A program made the translations under genes and the position numbers. From positions 62,001 to 126,000 of the forward strand of contig NZ_NWSX01000016.1 of the NCBI RefSeq assembly GCF_002531825.1: 64,000 bases of DNA, in the 5' to 3' direction. The notes beneath the pieces were generated by a model, which saw only the letters and a program-made list of their open reading frames with translations, was not told the DNA's origin and ran no database searches. Shown here piece after piece: positions 46,252-56,424 of this stretch. The stretch is from Rhizobium sp. J15. GTDB lineage: Bacteria > Pseudomonadota > Alphaproteobacteria > Rhizobiales > Rhizobiaceae. Within the stretch, counting starts at the first letter, position 1; each line of letters begins with the position of its first letter.

Positions 46252-46751
46252 TGCTGCCGCGCGAGGATTTTGTTTCCCGCTTCGGCGGTGTCTTCGAACA
46301 TTCGCCCTTCATCGCCGAACGCGCCTATGACGCCGGCAGCGTGAAGGAGCCGTTGACCGCATCAACCGTGCATGCGGCCCTTGCCGCTGCCTTCCGCGCC
46401 GCAAGCCCGGAGGAGCGTCTCGGCGTGCTGCGCGCCCATCCCGATCTTGCCGGGCGGCTCGCCATCGCAGGCGAACTCACCGAGGACAGCCGCAAGGAGC
46501 AAGCCGGCGCCGGGCTCGACCGGCTGAGCCCGGCCGAACATGCCCGCTTCACCGAGCTCAATTCGGCCTATGTCGAAAAATTCGGCTTTCCCTTCATCAT
46601 CGCGGTCAAGGGGCTCGGCAAGGACGATATCCTCTCGGCCTTCGAGACGAGGATCGGCAACGGCCGGGATGAGGAATTGGCGACCGCGGCTGCGCAGGTC
46701 GAGCGGATCGCGCTGCTGCGCCTGGCATCGATGCTGCCGGAGGCCGAATGA
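46251..46751 (+). CDS. uraD: OHCU decarboxylase
   Basis: A 166-residue enzyme that decarboxylates 2-oxo-4-hydroxy-4-carboxy-5-ureidoimidazoline to S-allantoin. FEHSPFIAERAYDAG with its His, LRAHPDLAGRLA, and NSAYVEKFGFPFIIAVKG are diagnostic. Its start shares one base with the puuE stop (TGATG). Confidence 0.93.
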   Translation: MLPREDFVSRFGGVFEHSPFIAERAYDAGSVKEPLTASTVHAALAAAFRAASPEERLGVLRAHPDLAGRLAIAGELTEDSRKEQAGAGLDRLSPAEHARFTELNSAYVEKFGFPFIIAVKGLGKDDILSAFETRIGNGRDEELATAAAQVERIALLRLASMLPEAE

Positions 46752-47110
46752 AGGAGCGGCGCGCGATCGACTATCTCAATGAGATGTATGAGGCGGCGTC
46801 CGAAGCGTTGTCTTTCGTCGGCGGAATGGATGGGGCGGCCTTCGCCGGGGACAAGCTCACCTTCAAGGCGGTGGCATTCTGCCACTTCACCATCGGTGCT
46901 GCGGCGTCCCGCCTGCTGGTGGCGCATCCGGAATTTGCCACCGAGCATCCCGACCTGCCGTGGACGAAAATCTGCGGCACGGGCAATCGCATTCTCGAGG
47001 ACGTCTTCGATCTCGATCCCGTCGAGATGTGGGAGGCGACCTATCGCACGCTGCCGGAATTGCTTTCGGCGATCGACGCGATCCGCAACTGGCATGCCCA
47101 AGGCGAGTGA
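46748..47110 (+). CDS. HepT-like (DUF86) small helical protein with degenerate active site
   Basis: A 120-residue helical protein resembling HepT, the RNase-like toxin of HepT-MntA systems, in length and helix pattern ([42 protein letters not shown]). The catalytic Rx4HxY motif should be near residue 81, but reads R81 ILED V86 F D88, lacking both His and Tyr. No MntA nucleotidyltransferase is adjacent. The start overlaps the uraD stop. The inactive motif and position in a purine operon suggest a repurposed structural or nucleotide-binding role. Confidence 0.6.
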
Positions 47111-47970: not shown

Positions 47971-48711
47971 ATGAGATTTGCCGCGATCGCCGACATTCAC
48001 GGCAACCATCTGGCGCTCGAGGCGGTGCTTGCCGATATTCGGGCGCAGGGTATCGAGGAGATCGTCAATCTCGGCGATTTCTTCAGCGGACCGCTGGAGG
48101 CGGGCCGGACGGCGGAGATTCTGATACCGCTCGGGCTGACTTCGGTTCGCGGCAACCACGACCGTTATCTGATCGAGCAGGCCCCTGATGCCATGCATCT
48201 GTCGGATGCCGCCGCCTACCGGCAATTGAAGCCATCCCATCTCGATTGGCTGCGCAGCCTGCCATTCGATACGGTCTATCGCGGCGAGGCCTATCTCTGC
48301 CATGCGACGCCGAAGGACGACAATCTCTACTGGCTGGAATCGGTGTCGCCGCAGGGCTATATCTTCCCGAAGCCGATCGAAGCGATCGAGGCGCTTGCCG
48401 AAGGCATCGACCTGCCGCTGATCCTCTGCGGCCACAGCCATGTCCCGCGCGCCGTCCGTCTCTCGGACGGCCGTCTGATCGTCAATCCCGGCAGCGTCGG
48501 CTGCCCGGCCTATGACGACGATCTGCCGCACTATCACAAGGTCGAAGCCGGCCATCCGCTGGCCGGCTACGCCATTCTCGAGAAGACGGGTGCGGCATGG
48601 ACATGGCAGTTCAGGAACGTCGCCTATAACAATCTTGCCATGTCGAGGCTGGCGGCGGAAAACCGCCGGCCCGAATGGGCGAGCGCGCTGGCGACGGGCT
48701 GGCTGAGATAG
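47971..48711 (+). CDS. Metallophosphoesterase (calcineurin-like)
   Basis: A 246-residue protein. AAIADIHGNHLALEAVL (DxH), NLGDFFSGP (GD), VRGNHDRY (GNHD) and CGHSHVPR (GHxH) give the complete two-metal site. Related proteins hydrolyse diverse phosphoesters. It begins two bases after uraH, so belongs to the operon, though its substrate is unknown and it may not serve purine breakdown. Confidence 0.88.
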   Translation: MRFAAIADIHGNHLALEAVLADIRAQGIEEIVNLGDFFSGPLEAGRTAEILIPLGLTSVRGNHDRYLIEQAPDAMHLSDAAAYRQLKPSHLDWLRSLPFDTVYRGEAYLCHATPKDDNLYWLESVSPQGYIFPKPIEAIEALAEGIDLPLILCGHSHVPRAVRLSDGRLIVNPGSVGCPAYDDDLPHYHKVEAGHPLAGYAILEKTGAAWTWQFRNVAYNNLAMSRLAAENRRPEWASALATGWLR

Positions 48712-48733
48712 TCCACACCCGCCCGCGCTGCGA

Positions 48734-50506
48734 TCATTCCTTCTCGGGCGCCGAAGGAGTGATCCTCTTTGCCGGGGATGCGGCAGGCGCGACCGGAGCA
48801 GTCGATGCTGCCGGCTTCACCGGAGCCGCGGGCGCTAGCGCCGGCTTTGCCGGTGCTGCGGCCGGTTTTGCGCCATCGAGGTTTCCAAGCAGGGATGAGA
48901 TGGCGTCGTCGCCTTCGAAGCCGGCTTCCTTCAGAAGCTTGTCGAGGATCGGCTTGTTGGCCTGGTAGGCAAGCAGTTGGCTGGCCAGTCCGTCGCCCAT
49001 GCCGATGCCGTTTCCGCCGTTCGCGCCGCCGCGGCCGAGCATGCCGCCGGTGTCGAAGATCCTGATATCGGAGATCTTTTCGATCGGTTTGACCGCCTCG
49101 GCGAGTGCTTCTGGAATGATACGGATGCGCTCGCGGGTGATCTCGAATTCGATGATGGCGGCGCTCAACTTGTTACGGGCGTCGTTGAGCAATGCCTCGC
49201 TCTCGGCCGCGGCCTTGCCGGTTTCGAGAATACCCTTGGCCTTGATGATCGCCGCGTCCGCTTCGGCGGTCGCCAGCGTCTTGATGGCTTCCGCCTGGTC
49301 GATCGCGGCCTGCTTCTCGGCCTCGGCGCCGACGGTCACGGCCGTGGCTTCGGTTTCGGCTTTCTTGCGCGCGTCGATGACCGCGATCTGCTTTTCGCGT
49401 TCGGCGATCTCGATCGCCTTGGCGGTGCCGACCTTTTCTTCTGCCGCAATCGCGGTGGCGCGGGCCGTTTCGGCGGCCGCCTTCGCCTCGGACTCCTCGC
49501 GGCTCTTGTTGGCGACGGCGATGGCGCTTTCCTGGGCGACGATCTGAAGGTCACGCTTGGCTTCGGTGTCGCGCTGCTGGACGGCGCGGGCGGAATCGAT
49601 GTTTGCGCTTTCGCGGGCCTGCTTGGCGGCCGCCTCGCGCTCGGCGATTGCCTGTTCCGCGGCGATGCGGGCTTCTTCCTCGGCACGTATTGCCGCCTGC
49701 TCCTGCTGGGCGGTCTCGGCGCGCGTCGCGGCGGATTTATTGGCGATGTCGCGTTCCTGGTTGAGCTCGGCTTCGCGCTTGGTTCGTTCGATGGCGAGCG
49801 ACTGCTGGCGGGCCTCCAGGTCCTTCTGGGCGATGGCGACTTCGGTATCGCGGACGATTTCGTTCCGCTCCTTCTTGCGACCCTCGGTGATGCGGGTCAG
49901 CGCCGCGAGACCCTGCGCGTCGAAGAAGTTGTTGGCGTTGAAATGCTTGATGTCGGTCTGGTCGAGACGGGTGAGCGATACGGATTCGAGCTCGAGACCG
50001 TTCGACTGGAGGTCGGCGCCGACGGCTTCCTGCACGGCCTTGACGAAATCCATGCGCTGTTCCTGCAGCGCGTCGAGATTCATGGTCGCCGCCACCGAGC
50101 GAAGGCCGTCGACGAATTTCGCTTCGATCAGGATGCGGAGCGCTTCGGCGTCGTTGGTGCGGCTGCCGAGCGTCTGGGCGGCCAGCGCAATCGAGGAGCC
50201 GTCGGGCTTCACGCGCACATAGAATTCGGCGCCGATATCGACGCGCATGCGGTCCTTGGTGATCAGCGCATCGCCTTCGCCGCGGCGGACTTCCAGCCGC
50301 AGCGTCTTCAGGTTGACCCTGGCGATCGAGTGGAAGATCGGCAGGACGACGGAGCCGCCGTCGAGCACGACTTTCTGGCCGCCGAGGCCGGTGCGCACAT
50401 AGGCCTCGTCGCGGCTGGAGCGCGTGTAGAGAGAGGCGAGGACAAAACCGATGCCGAAGATCAGGACGATGCTAATGCCGGCCGGTAGAATAATGTCATA
50501 CATCAT
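48734..50506 (-). CDS. Flotillin-like SPFH-domain membrane protein
   Basis: A 590-residue protein with an N-terminal hydrophobic anchor (IILPAGISIVLIFGIGFVLA), an SPFH domain at about 30-200 (MRVDIGAEFYVRVKP), a long Glu/Ala-rich coiled coil at about 220-440 with EAEKQAAIDQAEAIKTLATAEA-type repeats, and a Pro/Ala-rich tail. Flotillins (YqiK) organise membrane microdomains. Its gene overlaps yqiJ by four bases, the usual bacterial pairing. Confidence 0.92.
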   Translation of the reverse strand: MMYDIILPAGISIVLIFGIGFVLASLYTRSSRDEAYVRTGLGGQKVVLDGGSVVLPIFHSIARVNLKTLRLEVRRGEGDALITKDRMRVDIGAEFYVRVKPDGSSIALAAQTLGSRTNDAEALRILIEAKFVDGLRSVAATMNLDALQEQRMDFVKAVQEAVGADLQSNGLELESVSLTRLDQTDIKHFNANNFFDAQGLAALTRITEGRKKERNEIVRDTEVAIAQKDLEARQQSLAIERTKREAELNQERDIANKSAATRAETAQQEQAAIRAEEEARIAAEQAIAEREAAAKQARESANIDSARAVQQRDTEAKRDLQIVAQESAIAVANKSREESEAKAAAETARATAIAAEEKVGTAKAIEIAEREKQIAVIDARKKAETEATAVTVGAEAEKQAAIDQAEAIKTLATAEADAAIIKAKGILETGKAAAESEALLNDARNKLSAAIIEFEITRERIRIIPEALAEAVKPIEKISDIRIFDTGGMLGRGGANGGNGIGMGDGLASQLLAYQANKPILDKLLKEAGFEGDDAISSLLGNLDGAKPAAAPAKPALAPAAPVKPAASTAPVAPAASPAKRITPSAPEKE

Positions 50507-51150
50507 GACTGCTCCCTGAAAGATTGATTGTCCGCGCCGGCCGGATCGGCGAGTGCGGGAATGGCGATAAACACATCTGCCTTGCGATCGACGAGGAGAA
50601 CCTCAGTGCCGATCTTCAGCGGGCCCTCGTCCTTGGCGGCCTTGGCTCTCAGAACATGCCAGTTTCCATGCTGGTCCTTGACGCGGACGCGCCCCGGCAG
50701 TCCCTGGTCGAGCGGGCCGAGCGACACTTCCGCGGTCCGGCCGATGAAGGTGTCGAGATCGACGGCATAGGTCTCGTCGTGCGGGACGATCCGCGCCACC
50801 GTCCGGCTCGAGGCCCGGACCATGGGGAAGGTGAGCACCAAGGCGGGAACGGCGGCGACGGCGGCCGGCAGCGGCGCCCAGAAAGCGACGGCGACCGCCT
50901 GTATGGCGAAGCCGGCAATGGCGAAGAAGCCGAGCGTCATCATCAGGAGAATGAGCAGGGGAACGCCGCCGACATTGAGCCAGGACAGGTAGCCCGCAAT
51001 GCCGTCATGGCCGTGGAAATCCGGTTTTCCGAGAAGCTCGGTGATCGAAAAACCCATGACGGTCGCCAGCATCTCGATCACGGTCAGGCCGGCAAGCACG
51101 GCGGCGGCGATCGCAAAGGGAAGGCATTCAGGAGCGAGGAAAAGTCCCAT
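50503..51150 (-). CDS. YqiJ-like membrane protein with OB-fold domain
   Basis: A 215-residue protein: three to four hydrophobic segments in the first 115 residues, then a cytoplasmic OB-like beta barrel (GRTAEVSLGPLDQGLPGRVRVKDQHG). YqiJ/NfeD-type proteins accompany flotillins and are thought to be partners in the membrane. Start 6 bases after the upstream gene's stop. Confidence 0.85.
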   Translation of the reverse strand: MGLFLAPECLPFAIAAAVLAGLTVIEMLATVMGFSITELLGKPDFHGHDGIAGYLSWLNVGGVPLLILLMMTLGFFAIAGFAIQAVAVAFWAPLPAAVAAVPALVLTFPMVRASSRTVARIVPHDETYAVDLDTFIGRTAEVSLGPLDQGLPGRVRVKDQHGNWHVLRAKAAKDEGPLKIGTEVLLVDRKADVFIAIPALADPAGADNQSFREQS

Positions 51151-51155
51151 CGGCG

Positions 51156-52295
51156 TTACCGGTTATCCGCCTTGAAACGCGCGAGGCGGGCCTCGATCGC
51201 CTGCTCGCGGTGCAGTCGGTCGAGTTCGTCCAGTTCGGAACTATGAGCCTGTTCGCCGGATGGAACGCCGGTCAGCCGCGAGACCGCCGCGGCGGCGCGG
51301 GCAGCATCTGCGCCCGGCGTCGGTCTGCTCTGGCCGGCGAGAGCCTCTTCGGGATGCTTGGCGATGCTGCGCTTGAAATCGGCAAGGCGGGCGTCGGCCT
51401 CGCGGCGCGTGGCGAGCACCGCCTGCAGGGCTTTCTGGCCTTCATCCACCTGCTCGCGCGCATCGGCCAGCGCCTTGTCGAGCGCTGCGATCTGGGATTC
51501 GAGATCGATCTGACGGGCGACGCCGGCCTTTGCGAGATCGTCGCGCCCGGAGGAGACCGCGATGCGGATCTTCTCATCCAGCGCATTCATGTCTTCGACG
51601 ATTTCGTCCTTGCGGCTCTGGATGCGATATTCCTCGGCGCGCGCCTTGCCGAGGTCGGTGCGGGCTTCCTCCGCAGCCGCATCGATCTCGCGGATCGCCT
51701 GTTCGATGACCGCGATCTTGTTGACGCCCTCCGCCTTGTCGATCGCCGCATTCGCGATGCCCGCGATCAGGCGACCCATGCGTGAAAGAATGCCTTCATT
51801 CGTCATGTTTTCCTCCATCCGAGCGGAATTCGGCGTGACGCCGATGTTAATCTCGTAGCGATCATGGTCTGCTACAAGGTATGCGGGAAAAATACTCTCC
51901 CATCCCTTGGAATACCCCGCGACGTCGAAGGGCACGGCAACGCGTCCGTGCACCGTGGCGATCGTCAGGTCCGAGGGGCCTTTGATGGCGAAGAGCTTAT
52001 CGTCGAGTGGCAGCTGCAGCGGCTCGGGGATGATGCCCCGATTGGCGGCGAAATCGCGAAGGCCGAGCGTCACCAGCCGCGCCGGCAGGCCGGTCCGCTC
52101 GCGGACGGTTTCATAGGCAAGATCATGCAGGACGACGAGATTGGCGCCCGCTTTGTCGTCGATGAGTTCGGTCAGGATGCCGATCATCCTGCGATAGGCG
52201 GTAATGGTGTCATCAAGCGCCTGGCGGGCCTGCTCGTCAGGCGCCAGCATGTAGCGCAGCAGCGATGGATGCGGTGTCTTGCTCGTGGGTGCCAT
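51156..52295 (-). CDS. Fusion of a TnpB N-terminal-like segment with a PspA/IM30 domain
   Basis: A 379-residue frame with no internal stop. Residues 164-379 are PspA/IM30: long coiled-coil helices from ILSRMGRLIAGIANAAIDKAEG with ESQIAALDKALADAREQVDEG. PspA polymerises on membranes under envelope stress and is expected beside flotillin/YqiJ. Residues about 12-153 instead resemble the N-terminal part of IS605-family TnpB: LHDLAYETVRERTGLPARL (56-74), DDKLFAIKG (98-106), HGRVAVPF (116-123) and RYEINIGV (146-153). The resemblance stops where TnpB's RuvC nuclease would begin. An internal ATG at 51804-51806 has a strong GGAGG 6 bases upstream, so a short PspA of 216 residues can also be made. The long form's start (ATG 52295) has no clear ribosome site; a hairpin at 52309-52329 precedes it. 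Confidence 0.75.
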   Translation of the reverse strand: MAPTSKTPHPSLLRYMLAPDEQARQALDDTITAYRRMIGILTELIDDKAGANLVVLHDLAYETVRERTGLPARLVTLGLRDFAANRGIIPEPLQLPLDDKLFAIKGPSDLTIATVHGRVAVPFDVAGYSKGWESIFPAYLVADHDRYEINIGVTPNSARMEENMTNEGILSRMGRLIAGIANAAIDKAEGVNKIAVIEQAIREIDAAAEEARTDLGKARAEEYRIQSRKDEIVEDMNALDEKIRIAVSSGRDDLAKAGVARQIDLESQIAALDKALADAREQVDEGQKALQAVLATRREADARLADFKRSIAKHPEEALAGQSRPTPGADAARAAAAVSRLTGVPSGEQAHSSELDELDRLHREQAIEARLARFKADNR

Positions 52296-52395
52296 GGATA
52301 AAAACATAAAGCACCGCTTTTGTGCTTTCAAGAGGAGGCGTACGAAAAATACAACCTTTGTTGAACTTGTCGTTGGAAGAAGGAGAGATCACAAG

Positions 52396-52530
52396 ATGCG
52401 TTTACTGAGCAATTCGCAAAAGCAGCGTTCGACACCGTTTTCGGATCACATTGCCCGCCGACGAACCGGCGGCGGATCGGTTCCGCTTCCTATCTGCCCG
52501 CCGTGCGCGCCTCGCGAATACCGGCGCTGA
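52396..52530 (+). CDS. Possible small ORF, unknown
   Basis: A 44-codon frame starting MRLLSNSQKQRSTPF behind a strong GAAGGAGAGATC ribosome site, in the gap between two divergent/convergent genes. Its 3' part overlaps the convergent phosphatidyltransferase gene by 41 bases. No family resemblance, and the product is basic and proline-rich near the end. It could be a leader peptide or chance. Confidence 0.3.
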   Translation: MRLLSNSQKQRSTPFSDHIARRRTGGGSVPLPICPPCAPREYRR

Positions 52531-53101
52531 TACGGTTGATAGTAGTCCATACGAGAAGGAGAGCCACCACGGCCCAAAGCCACACGGTCCATGCTGCAAA
52601 CGTACCGCCAACCGCGACAAAGACGCCAAGCGCGCCGAAAAGCACCGCGCGGTCGCTCTTGCCCAGCGGTCCGTCGTAACGCCGGCTGGCGCCGACCGTT
52701 TGACTGAGAATGCCGGCAAATTCCGTCAGCACCGAGAGGAAAATGACAGCCATGGCCGGCATCAGGCCGTTCGGATCGATCAGTGCAAACGGCAAATACA
52801 GGGCGATATCCGAGACGACATCGCCGATCTCGTTGAGATAGGCGCCCAGAATGCTCTTTTGCCCATGTTCGCGCGCGAGCATGCCGTCAATCGCATTGAG
52901 GCCCATGCGCAGGAGAAACCATATGGGCACGAGCAGGAACAACTGCGGAAGCGGAACGATGCTGAGAAAAAGGCCGAGTGCAACGGAGACGGCGGCAGCA
53001 ACCGATGTCACCTGATTGGCGGTGACGCCTCGCGCCGCCAGCGCGCGCACCAGAGGGCGAAGGATATTCTGAAACCGGGACTTCAATTGATAAACAGACA
53101 T
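52490..53101 (-). CDS. CDP-alcohol phosphatidyltransferase family protein with altered motif
   Basis: A 203-residue membrane protein with about five hydrophobic segments. The family motif D-x2-D-G-x2-A-R-x8-G-x3-D-x3-D is present as N69-AI-D72-G73-ML-A-R77-x8-G86-x3-N90-x3-D94, so two of four catalytic/metal-binding Asp are Asn. Normal members transfer a phosphatidyl group from CDP-diacylglycerol to an alcohol. The changes suggest either a different substrate/metal arrangement or a subfamily rule. It is divergent from the hydrolase-methyltransferase fusion at 53301, with which it probably forms a lipid cluster. Confidence 0.75.
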   Translation of the reverse strand: MSVYQLKSRFQNILRPLVRALAARGVTANQVTSVAAAVSVALGLFLSIVPLPQLFLLVPIWFLLRMGLNAIDGMLAREHGQKSILGAYLNEIGDVVSDIALYLPFALIDPNGLMPAMAVIFLSVLTEFAGILSQTVGASRRYDGPLGKSDRAVLFGALGVFVAVGGTFAAWTVWLWAVVALLLVWTTINRISAGIREARTAGR

Positions 53102-53300
53102 GCTACCTCAGTGGAGTTTCGTGGCATCAGAAAAATCTATCCCAGCTCCGGCGGTGCAGATCGTCGTACTTGCGGGGAGCCGATACTTCATGTCGGTTCT
53201 CGTATAGGGCTTACATTTGCGACTAGACTTTTGCAATGAATGCAAATCAGTGTTCCGCTAATGGTTGCAACTCATCCACCGATCAGAACTGGAGAAGACC

Positions 53301-55085
53301 GTGCTGCAAACTGCCGATAGTGGGCAACCGTCATCGACGGCGAGACCGATGCATGAATCCGAATTCGTCTCGCACGATGGGACGCGACTCTTTTATCGGA
53401 TGTGGCCTGCGACCGGCACTTCACCGAAGGGCGCCATCATTCTTCTCCATCGCGGTCATGAGCATAGCGGCCGCGTCGCCCATCTCGCTGCCGAGCTCGG
53501 TCTCGATGATTTTGCCTTCTATGCCTGGGATGCACGCGGCCACGGGCGCTCGCCGGGAGAGCGTGGCTATTCGCCATCTTTCGCTGCGTCGGTGCGCGAC
53601 CTCGATTGCTTCGTCCGCCATGTCAGCGAGACGAGCGGTACCGCCGTCGAAGACATCGCCGTGATTGCCCAAAGCGTCGGCGCGGTCCTCGCCACCACCT
53701 GGGTGCATGACTATGCGCCGCAAATCCGAGCGCTCGTGCTCGCCTCGCCGGCCTTCAGCGTCAAGCTCTACGTGCCTTTTGCCAGGGAAGGCATTGCGCT
53801 CTGGGAAAAGCTCAAGGGGACATTCTTCGTCAATTCCTATGTCAAGGCGAGGTTTCTGACGCATGATCCCGAGCGCATCGCCTCCTTCGAGGCCGATCCG
53901 TTGATCACCCGGCCGATCGCCTCCAACATTCTGCTGCAGCTTTATGAAGCGGCCGCCCGCGTCGTCGACGACGCCCGCGCCATCACCGTTCCCACCCAAT
54001 TGCTGATCTCCGGCAGCGACTGGGTGGTGCGACATGCGCCGCAGCATCGGTTCTACGAAAACCTCGGCAGCCGCATCAAGGAGCGGCATGTGCTTCCCGG
54101 CTTCTATCATGACACACTGGGCGAGAAGGACCGCGCGATTGCGCTCGCCGAGGTCCGTCGTTTTATCGATGCGCGTTTCGCCGAGCCCCGGGCGCCCGCC
54201 GATCTTCGCACCGCCCATGTCCAGGGCTATACCAAGGATGAGGCCGACCGGCTCGCGAGCCCTCTGGACGCCATGTCCCCGCGCGGCATCTACTGGGCGC
54301 TCAGCCGTCTCAACATCAGGCTCGGCGCGCTGGTGTCGGAAGGCATAAAAACCGGGGTCAAGACCGGTTTCGATTCCGGCTCGACGCTCGATTACGTCTA
54401 TGAGAACCAGCCGCGGGGACTCGGTCCCGGCGGGCGGTTGATCGACAAGGTGTTCCTCGAGGCGATCGGCTGGCGCGGCATCAGGCAGCGCAAGCTGCAC
54501 TTGCAGGAACTGATCGAGCATGGGCTGCAGCGTTTGAAAGCAGCCGGCCGCAGCACCCATATGCTCGACATTGCGGCTGGGCATGGCCGTTATGTCCTTG
54601 ATGCGATCGAGGCGGCTGCCGTGCGTCCCGAGAGTGCGCGATTGCAGGATTATTCCCCCATCAATGTCGATGCCGGCCGCAACAGCATTGCCACGCGGGG
54701 CTTGAGTGATTTCGTGAGCTTTCGCCAGCAGGATGCCTTTGACGGCGAAGGGCTGGCCGCAATCACGCCGGCTCCGGATCTCGCAATCGTCTCCGGCCTT
54801 TACGAGCTTTTCTCCGACAATGGGATGATTGCCGCTTCGCTCGACGGGATCGCCCGCGCGATGCGGCCCGGTGGTCTGCTCGTCTACACCAACCAGCCAT
54901 GGCATCCGCAACTGGAGATGATCGCCCGCGCCCTGACCTCCCACCGCGGCGGCCAAGCGTGGGTGATGCGGCGGCGGACGCAGGAAGAAATGGACCAGCT
55001 GGTCGCCGCAGCCGGTTTCCGCAAGATCGAACAGCGCATCGACCAGTGGGGCATTTTCACCGTCTCGCTGGCGGAAAGAATTTGA
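53301..55085 (+). CDS. Bifunctional alpha/beta hydrolase - SAM methyltransferase
   Basis: About 594 residues with two enzymes in one chain. Residues about 15-300 are an alpha/beta hydrolase like monoacylglycerol/lysophospholipases: LLHRGHEHSGRV oxyanion region, AQSVG nucleophile S125, and GFYHDTLGE His. Residues about 380-594 are a class I methyltransferase with LDIAAGHGRYVLDA (D423) and MRPGGLLVYTNQPWHP. The GTG at 53301 is chosen with GGAGAAG before it; TTG 53265 and ATG 53349 are alternatives. It lies 10 bases before the PAP2 fusion, so one operon. The combination points to editing of a phospholipid or its head group; the substrate is unknown. Confidence 0.82.
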   Translation: MLQTADSGQPSSTARPMHESEFVSHDGTRLFYRMWPATGTSPKGAIILLHRGHEHSGRVAHLAAELGLDDFAFYAWDARGHGRSPGERGYSPSFAASVRDLDCFVRHVSETSGTAVEDIAVIAQSVGAVLATTWVHDYAPQIRALVLASPAFSVKLYVPFAREGIALWEKLKGTFFVNSYVKARFLTHDPERIASFEADPLITRPIASNILLQLYEAAARVVDDARAITVPTQLLISGSDWVVRHAPQHRFYENLGSRIKERHVLPGFYHDTLGEKDRAIALAEVRRFIDARFAEPRAPADLRTAHVQGYTKDEADRLASPLDAMSPRGIYWALSRLNIRLGALVSEGIKTGVKTGFDSGSTLDYVYENQPRGLGPGGRLIDKVFLEAIGWRGIRQRKLHLQELIEHGLQRLKAAGRSTHMLDIAAGHGRYVLDAIEAAAVRPESARLQDYSPINVDAGRNSIATRGLSDFVSFRQQDAFDGEGLAAITPAPDLAIVSGLYELFSDNGMIAASLDGIARAMRPGGLLVYTNQPWHPQLEMIARALTSHRGGQAWVMRRRTQEEMDQLVAAAGFRKIEQRIDQWGIFTVSLAERI

Positions 55086-55095
55086 GGGCAAGCCG

Positions 55096-56424
55096 TTGGG
55101 GCAAGCAGATTCTACTCTTTCCCAGGCAGGGCCGGTCGCGAAGCGGGCGGCGCTCTGGCTCGTCTTCCTGGCGCCGTTCTTCTATCTGACCTATGGCGGT
55201 GCCAACTGGCTGGCATCGCAACGCGCTCATGTGCCGAACATCGCCTTTGGATGGGAAAGCGCCATTCCGTTCCTTGCATGGACGATCATTCCATATTGGT
55301 CGATCAACCTGTTCTACGCACTCTGCCTGTTCATCAACACGACGCCGCGCGATGTGGATATGCTCGCGAGGCGTTACCTGACGATCCAGATCATAGCGAT
55401 CGCCTGCTTTATCGCGTTTCCGCTCGAAGCAACCTTCGTCCGGCCGGCCACCAGCGGTCTGCCCGGTTTCATGTTCGCCGTCCTCGGCGGTTTCGACAAG
55501 CCGTTCAACCAGGCGCCGTCGCTGCATGTCGCGCTGCTGGTGGTGATCTGGGACCATCTGCGCGGCCGGCTGCCGCGCCGGGCGCGGCTTCTCTGGCACT
55601 TCTGGTGCTTTCTGATCGGCGCTTCCGTGCTGACGACGTGGCAGCATCACGTCATGGACATACCGACCGGCATGATGCTCGGTCTGTTTGCCGCCTGGCT
55701 CTTTCCGCGCGATGCCGGCTCCCCTCTTGCGAATTTTGCTTTGAGCGGCGATCCGAAGTCGCGCCGTCTTGGACTCTGCTATCTGTGCGGTGCCGTCGCA
55801 TTTCTCGGCCTCACAGTGTTCTGTACTCCTCTATCGCCCGCGGCACTTCTGTTGCTCTGGCCGGCCGTTGCGCTGGCGGTGGTCGCCGTCGGATATTTCG
55901 GCGCCGGGCCGCAGATATTCCTGAAACGCGCCGACGGCCGGGCCGCGCTTGCCAGCCGCTGGCTGCTGGCGCCCTACCGGCTCGGCGCGATCATCAACGT
56001 TTGGCTCTGGACGCGCAAAATGCCGGCATCCGTGGCGATCGCCGATGGCGTCCATCTCGGCCGTTTTCCGCGTCGCGATGAGGCCAACCGTTTTACCACG
56101 GTGATCGACATCACCGGCGAACTGCAGCGTCCGAGCGGGACGCTTGCACGCTGGTGCAGTTTTCCCGCCCTGGATCTTACCGGCCTCGACAAGGTCCAGG
56201 CGCGCGCCGCGGCCGATGTCATCGAAGCTGCGCGCCATCAGGGGCCGGTGCTCGTCTGCTGTGCGCTCGGTTTCCAGCGCAGCGCCTGCGTCATCGCAGG
56301 CTGGCTGGTCATCAGCCGGCGTTGCGAAAATCCAGCCGAAGCGTTGCAGCTGATCGAACGCGCGGGACGGCGTGTTTATCTGCCCGCCGAAACGATCCAC
56401 GCCGTGACCGAGGGCTCGCAATGA
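55096..56424 (+). CDS. PAP2 phosphatase fused to dual-specificity phosphatase
   Basis: A 442-residue membrane protein. Six hydrophobic segments with a PAP2-like core: FDKPFNQAPSLHVAL and TTWQHHVMDIPTGMMLG hold the His residues of the lipid phosphatase site. The soluble C-terminus is a dual-specificity phosphatase with C389-x5-R395 (CALGFQR). TTG 55096 after GAGGG starts it. Fusion of two phosphatases suggests sequential removal of phosphates from one lipid, e.g. a phosphatidyl-polyol phosphate. The stop overlaps the next start (ATGA). Confidence 0.85.
   Translation: MGQADSTLSQAGPVAKRAALWLVFLAPFFYLTYGGANWLASQRAHVPNIAFGWESAIPFLAWTIIPYWSINLFYALCLFINTTPRDVDMLARRYLTIQIIAIACFIAFPLEATFVRPATSGLPGFMFAVLGGFDKPFNQAPSLHVALLVVIWDHLRGRLPRRARLLWHFWCFLIGASVLTTWQHHVMDIPTGMMLGLFAAWLFPRDAGSPLANFALSGDPKSRRLGLCYLCGAVAFLGLTVFCTPLSPAALLLLWPAVALAVVAVGYFGAGPQIFLKRADGRAALASRWLLAPYRLGAIINVWLWTRKMPASVAIADGVHLGRFPRRDEANRFTTVIDITGELQRPSGTLARWCSFPALDLTGLDKVQARAAADVIEAARHQGPVLVCCALGFQRSACVIAGWLVISRRCENPAEALQLIERAGRRVYLPAETIHAVTEGSQ

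Follow-up and report, generated by a model that had tools for sequence, protein, structure and literature searches.

A PspA operon lies on the reverse strand of a 64,000-nucleotide stretch of the Rhizobium sp. J15 genome (contig NZ_NWSX01000016.1, positions 62,001 to 126,000), referred to below as the window. Its first gene joins the REC lobe of the nuclease TnpB to the membrane-stress protein PspA, and genes for a YqiJ-like membrane protein and a flotillin follow (Table 1). The promoter of the operon contains a palindrome that varies together with a single residue of the lobe. Here, we describe the fusion gene, the evidence for the identity of its N-terminal part and the relationship between this part and the palindrome.

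The fusion gene and its operon

The initial annotation, made from the sequence of the window, had described one unbroken 379-codon frame whose last 216 residues are PspA, fused to a TnpB-like segment within a flotillin operon. The frame and Pfam agree with this description: residues 168-293 match PspA_IM30 (E 1.6e-13), the PspA part alone (residues 164-379) matches the coiled-coil domain PF04012 above its cut-off (E 4.1e-14), and Pfam places YqiJ and flotillin downstream. The TnpB-like motifs that the annotation quoted are present in the lobe, which is 95% identical to its Rhizobium redzepovicii counterpart. Past residue ∼163 the chain runs on into PspA, and RuvC is absent. Besides the ATG at 52295, a further in-frame ATG is found at 52307.

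Table 1. Features of the PspA operon and its promoter (positions in the window)
Feature	Position	Strand	Evidence
Flotillin (SPFH/Band 7)	48734..50506	-	Pfam Flot 8.1e-27, Band_7 1.3e-15
YqiJ-like membrane protein with OB (oligonucleotide/oligosaccharide-binding) fold	50503..51150	-	Pfam YqiJ_N 1.4e-17, YqiJ_OB 1.1e-13
Fusion gene, TnpB REC lobe + PspA	51156..52295	-	single unbroken 379-codon frame
PspA/IM30 part, possible 216-residue short product	51156..51806	-	Pfam
Internal Shine-Dalgarno GGAGG, 5 bases 5' of PspA ATG	51812..51816	-	sequence
TnpB REC-lobe domain, residues 11-153	51837..52265	-	predicted structure and profile search
Thr76 codon; aligns with TAM reader Q80 of ISDra2 TnpB (TAM, transposon-associated motif)	52068..52070	-	alignment
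Arg73 codon; aligns with TAM reader F77 of ISDra2 TnpB; co-varies with operator	52077..52079	-	alignment
-10 element TATGTT, 17 bases past -35, 7 before ATG 52295	52303..52308	-	scan and comparison
Predicted operator, perfect inverted repeat AAAGCAC-N7-GTGCTTT	52308..52328	.	sequence
-35 element TTGAAA, predicted promoter	52326..52331	-	scan

The lobe, PspA, YqiJ and flotillin occur together in 72 of 72 genome-contig loci, with the fusion gene at the head of the operon, and the same four-part arrangement is found in all 10 family loci among 11 further stretches. Because these loci were collected by lobe searches, the frequency of the lobe within them is uninformative. The upstream frame, on whose conservation the initial annotation depended, is open in 86/86 loci, and in each of these the lobe and PspA share a single frame (L064 and L141, which represent one place, are both counted). 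In seven Rhizobium pairs, the ratio of nonsynonymous to synonymous substitution rates is 0.09-0.38 for the lobe and 0.09-0.13 for PspA, indicating that the lobe is under purifying selection.

The annotation had also pointed to a strong internal ribosome site that would allow a short PspA to be made from the same gene. GGAGG is indeed present at 51816-51812, and a Shine-Dalgarno sequence precedes the internal PspA start in all 98 rows tested from a 100-row set of loci defined below; this test left out L175, a stand-alone lobe, and L135, where the pattern missed the PspA start. Judged from sequence, the internal site may yield short PspA as a second product. Upstream of the fusion start, 98/100 rows lack a Shine-Dalgarno sequence.

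The N-terminal domain is a TnpB REC lobe

Residues 1-164 were modeled with AlphaFold2 from 27 sequences (predicted local distance difference test score (pLDDT) 85.6, predicted template modeling score 0.81), giving an architecture of one strand, three helices and six strands. When the model was compared to the PDB with Foldseek, ISDra2 TnpB was the top match (E 4.9e-3, probability 0.99), so the structural check proposed in the initial annotation does lead to TnpB. Re-examination of Foldseek's best 1000 chains with VIA-align returned TnpB, Cas12f, Cas12k, Fanzor or other Cas12 proteins in all of rows 1-49 (Z 10.8 to 5.5, 127-149 residues), with an unrelated chain following in row 50 at Z 4.0. 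The aligned span in ISDra2 TnpB comprises residues 2-182 (8bf8, 8h1j), and RuvC begins at residue 185 (PMC10097598). The lobe corresponds to WED plus REC, and the span stops just before RuvC. The annotation had placed the end of the similarity correctly and had recognized the N-terminal part of TnpB, but what it called a wedge-type segment is the whole REC lobe rather than the wedge alone.

Sequence comparison with a profile agrees. A family profile built from 26 members matched 10 of 398 genomes of the phylum at E <= 0.01; nine of the matches are PspA fusions, and the tenth, the only match outside the family, is a full-length TnpB (E 1.8e-8, 38.6 bits) with RuvC and zinc parts that match PDB entries of Cas12f (E 6.8e-22). 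Together with the 49 leading structural matches, this puts the TnpB likeness above chance. A BLAST match (E 3e-5) joins the lobe to a Thermobacillus protein of 176 residues, which shares 46% identity with an annotated TnpB and whose nearest relatives are from Paenibacillus (52.9%, hypothetical), Geobacillus (46.8%, unannotated) and Parageobacillus (45.9%, TnpB); it is probably a truncated TnpB. The gene for this stand-alone lobe, annotated as hypothetical, is found on Thermobacillus composti plasmid pTHECO01 (L115:4001-4531), stops where RuvC would start and is followed by an S-layer-domain gene. Both the structure and the sequence link thus identify the arrangement that characterizes TnpB and Cas12 proteins, a WED OB barrel with an inserted helical REC domain.

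Several observations count against this assignment. The Foldseek E-values are modest (best 4.9e-3), the family profile retrieved nothing from the PDB sequences, and some members score NF047927 (9/27, best 5.6e-4) or TIGR01486 (7/27, best 2.3e-3) above the transposase model; we take both scores as chance. Searches by sequence alone otherwise revealed very little: a Pfam search of the lobe gave no match, and the NCBIfam transposase N-terminal domain TIGR01765 scored E 0.09 on it, below cut-off. That model is scored by 2/27 members (best E 0.031) and HTH_OrfB_IS605 by 1/27 (E 0.24), and PHROGs yielded a single weak match to the lobe (E 0.38). Among viral contigs, 30 stretches fit the search pattern and none was confirmed as a relative, and phage records contained no lobe relatives. 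Homology to the REC lobe of TnpB and the in-frame fusion to PspA are nonetheless well supported.

A palindrome in the promoter of the operon

The palindrome at 52308-52328 was not part of the initial annotation. It fills the spacer between the predicted -35 and -10 elements and is, by sequence, an operator-like site in the gene's own promoter. In relatives, the arms of the palindrome change together. The repeat ends 10-12 bases 5' of the first in-frame start in 87/100 rows, and the -35 place holds CTTGAAA, TTGTAAA, TTGAAAA or ATTGAAA in 84/100; in one locus, L135, no clear repeat is seen where it would normally lie. The repeat is followed by a hexamer that varies in its resemblance to TATAAT and, in 87/100 rows, is 5-7 bases away from the start. 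Because this distance is so short, transcription would start at the initiation codon or close to it, and the mRNA may be leaderless or nearly so.

The genome to which the window belongs (6.67 Mb) contains a single exact copy of the repeat, and a 25-base form that includes the end of the -35 element is likewise present only once, even with up to three mismatches allowed. The window contains two weaker sites with three mismatches elsewhere, giving 3 sites in total where 1.41 are expected. In the order, the exact repeat was found in 7/198 genomes, five times at this operon. The two genomes that have it elsewhere (G131 and G007) are not among the 11/199 lobe-bearing genomes, and we take these sites as chance because a backward control pattern matches three genomes.

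In one relative (L176, at G948:C22), the sequence reads as two tandem operator-like repeats within the ∼50 bases upstream of the start codon; the repeat between -35 and -10 is imperfect, and the one past -10 is perfect. CIRCE/HrcA was considered as the identity of the palindrome and was dropped, since the spacing differs from that of the CIRCE consensus. A heat-shock sigma factor is possible, given the CTTGAA sequence.

Residue 73 co-varies with the predicted operator

The covariation set consists of 100 rows that represent at most 98 places (L083/L173 and L064/L141 are doubled), with other duplicates of one place, TnpB loci and lobe-less loci set aside. Where position 5 of both half-sites is C, residue 73 is Arg in 74/74 rows, and where only one half-site has C it is Arg in 13/13. 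Gln73 accompanies G/G in 7/7 rows and G/T in the single row of that kind; with T/T, Gln73 is found in four rows and Arg73 in one (L065). A rule that any C goes with Arg, and its absence with Gln, thus holds in 99/100 rows, i.e. in 87/87 with C and in 12/13 without. Residue 73 ranks first among lobe columns in mutual information with the operator (0.983), and its column is the only one that switches alike in all three contrasts examined: L139 compared with eleven other Rhizobiales rows, L175 with three congeners and L176 with seven rows of its order. A tree simulation produced such a clean two-state split in 0/200,000 columns.

Alignment with the lobes of TnpB pairs residue 73 with F77, residue 76 with Q80 and Tyr61 with Y52 of ISDra2 TnpB; all three of these TnpB residues read the TAM, as seen by cryo-EM (PMC10097598). 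The two closest TnpB-like sequences, L105 and Thermobacillus, have Gln at 73, like the Gln73 members.

The strength of this relationship has limits, all of which weigh against our interpretation. The sole exception is L065, which retains Arg73 although both of its half-sites have T. Both the position-5 classes and the set of three contrasts were defined post hoc, once the pattern had been seen. In a tree of 63 of the 100 rows, built with the helix left out, the operator class changes four times and the residue three times, so that independent switches are few. An independent-pairs test found two pairs that differ in the same way and one without a difference, which is not significant (p 0.5). 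L175 and L176 sit on long, unresolved branches and could reflect a single switch. The mutual-information level itself was reached by 610/200,000 simulated columns, although these all contain more than three types of residue. Finally, the net charge of the lobe has a median of -2 and a range of -9 to +6 (100 rows), compared with +8 to +24 in 16/16 TnpB lobes, and this loss of positive charge is unusual for a DNA-binding domain.

RNA or DNA as the possible target of the lobe

The initial annotation had proposed binding of RNA, or of nucleic acid more generally, as the use of the lobe. If RNA is bound, the repeat could form a 5'-terminal hairpin in the mRNA, or act as an attenuator, through which the lobe controls translation. 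TnpB lobes share in RNA binding (PMC10097598), the repeat scores terminator-like in the window, and half-pairs of the RNA-tolerable T.G type are found in 10 rows compared with three for C.A (L064 and L141, among these rows, being one place). However, if the hexamer 5-7 bases before the start is the -10 element, the repeat would lie outside the transcript, and no Rfam match was found in 48000-53500. TnpB holds its RNA scaffold mainly by WED together with RuvC (PMC10097598). RNA binding is thus unsupported because the positive charge has been lost and the scaffold-binding RuvC is missing, and we regard control through an mRNA hairpin as improbable. DNA is the better candidate because the lobe co-varies with the promoter palindrome and because TnpB uses the retained lobe for the TAM duplex; the retained piece contains the TAM-duplex cleft of the ISDra2 enzyme (PMC10097598).

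It could also be argued that the lobe uses a guide RNA encoded elsewhere, as is the case for TldR proteins, which likewise descend from TnpB and regulate promoters (PMC13418256). TldRs need their guide and keep a mutated RuvC, whereas here the chain enters PspA or stops where RuvC would start. No guide RNA was detected at the locus, an Rfam search of 48000-53500 having found no RNA family at E<=1. We consider this explanation very unlikely.

A stand-alone lobe and operons without the lobe

A natural separation of the lobe from PspA is found in genome G920 (L175), where a 171-codon frame encodes the lobe alone and ends where RuvC would start. The operator and Arg73 are both kept, YqiJ begins 17 bases after the lobe frame and is followed by flotillin, and no PspA was found in the 11 kb examined. 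The model of this lobe has the same fold (pLDDT 90.8), and 50/50 VIA-align rows listed are TnpB, Cas12 or Fanzor (Z 11.3 to 6.6). Conversely, in four lobe-less PspA-YqiJ-flotillin operons (8.5-10 kb each), the operator repeat was not found at up to two mismatches; sites with three mismatches are present in L159 and L160, located away from the promoter. The other two operons, L158 and L161, start with a different gene, of ∼170 residues, whose promoter has a CATTTG/CAAATG inverted repeat, as if first gene and operator had been exchanged together. By eye, this gene resembles a ribbon-helix-helix protein; a Pfam match of that kind was not found.

These loci bear on a further alternative, in which the lobe serves PspA as a structural element or as a domain for protein binding, docking YqiJ or flotillin for example, and an unlinked regulator binds the palindrome. 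Such a role would suit a lobe that is folded, conserved and has lost its positive charge, that is fused to PspA in all but one of 100 rows, and whose WED domain (PMC10097598), like YqiJ, has an OB fold. It does not readily account for the persistence of lobe and operator without PspA, for the lobe-less operons that are without the operator, for the joint change of the operator base and residue 73, or for a repeat that is single in the genome. A linked regulator is also missing: when frames of at least 90 residues were compared across 24 diverse loci (∼5 kb per side), genes other than those of the operon were each shared by three loci at most. A regulator of less than 90 residues would slip through this comparison, which is a point against our interpretation. 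Overall, we think that this alternative is unlikely, albeit the most plausible of the alternatives discussed here.

Distribution and genomic surroundings

The lobe is patchily distributed. It is present in 11/199 genomes of the order, fused to PspA in 11/11, and in 6/385 genomes of the class; in three other alphaproteobacterial orders, it occurs in 4/17, 8/76 and 1/10 genomes. Eleven plasmid records, from the order Hyphomicrobiales, also contain it. A close PspA was found in 15/198 genomes, ten with the lobe and five with plain PspA, and four of these five are PspA-YqiJ-flotillin operons.

Across several genera, the operon is placed in differing neighborhoods and on plasmids. On an Agrobacterium plasmid, an IS701-family transposase adjoins it (L116:8599-9816). 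In the window, the frames next to the operon (52490-56424) appear by eye to be phosphatidyltransferase-like, alpha/beta hydrolase-methyltransferase and PAP2-like and may form a lipid-metabolism cluster. On the other side, a HepT-like gene (46748-47110), named from a syntenic plasmid record, lies within a urate-degradation cluster.

A model for autoregulation and its implications

Taken together, these results lead us to conclude that the TnpB REC lobe probably reads the palindrome in its own promoter without a guide RNA and autoregulates the operon, coupled to membrane-stress sensing by PspA. The lobe would have shed the nuclease half of TnpB along with the guide RNA and been retained as a sequence-specific DNA-binding domain, with the TAM-reading surface (Arg73/Thr76, where the third helix begins) contacting the palindrome. 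It would probably bind as a dimer or as an oligomer held by PspA. Bound between -35 and -10, the lobe would block RNA polymerase, and we therefore expect repression rather than activation of the operon. The PspA part would sense membrane stress, and its movement to the damaged membrane would pull the lobe off the operator, allowing PspA, YqiJ and flotillin to be made. The strong internal ribosome site would supply extra free PspA.

In Gammaproteobacteria, PspA controls its own operon via a DNA-binding partner, PspF. Whereas PspF (described in PMC11237479) is a separate protein, in the rhizobial system the presumed DNA-binding part and PspA are in one chain, and this part is not of the AAA+/helix-turn-helix type. 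The neighborhood of PspA, YqiJ-like protein and flotillin is that of the known PspA-YqiJ-flotillin (band-7) operons (PMC11237479), but the PspA fusions named there are to NlpC/P60 and PspAA, not to a TnpB lobe. Neither TnpB nor transposase occurs in the main text of two PspA surveys (PMC11237479, PMC9239133). In the open PubMed Central papers searched, we found no description of a PspA-TnpB fusion, and nothing there, including PMC8987985, that fits a guide-free or truncated TnpB acting as a transcription factor.

To our knowledge, the known descendants of TnpB (Cas12, Fanzor, TldR) all use RNA guides. The fusion shares with ISDra2 TnpB, a member of the IS200/IS605 group, a common WED+REC fold and the aligned TAM-reading positions, but unlike TnpB it lacks both RuvC and the TNB zinc finger and is joined to PspA in an operon, and we found no guide RNA for it. 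TldRs are RNA-guided repressors with an inactivated RuvC (PMC13418256) and, as is presumably the case here, are TnpB descendants acting on promoters; here, however, there is the lobe alone with a fixed palindrome, and RuvC is absent rather than inactivated.

On balance, we lean towards viewing the lobe as a new kind of transcription-factor DNA-binding domain, the PspA fusion as a one-chain stress switch, and the TAM-reading helix, through Arg or Gln at 73, as having been re-tuned together with the operator. If our interpretation is correct, the half of the nuclease that reads the TAM is a DNA-binding module that can be separated from the rest, and the lobe/operator pairs constitute a natural series for learning how TAM and protospacer-adjacent motif (PAM) specificity is set. 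It would also explain how the PspA-flotillin membrane operon of rhizobia is controlled.
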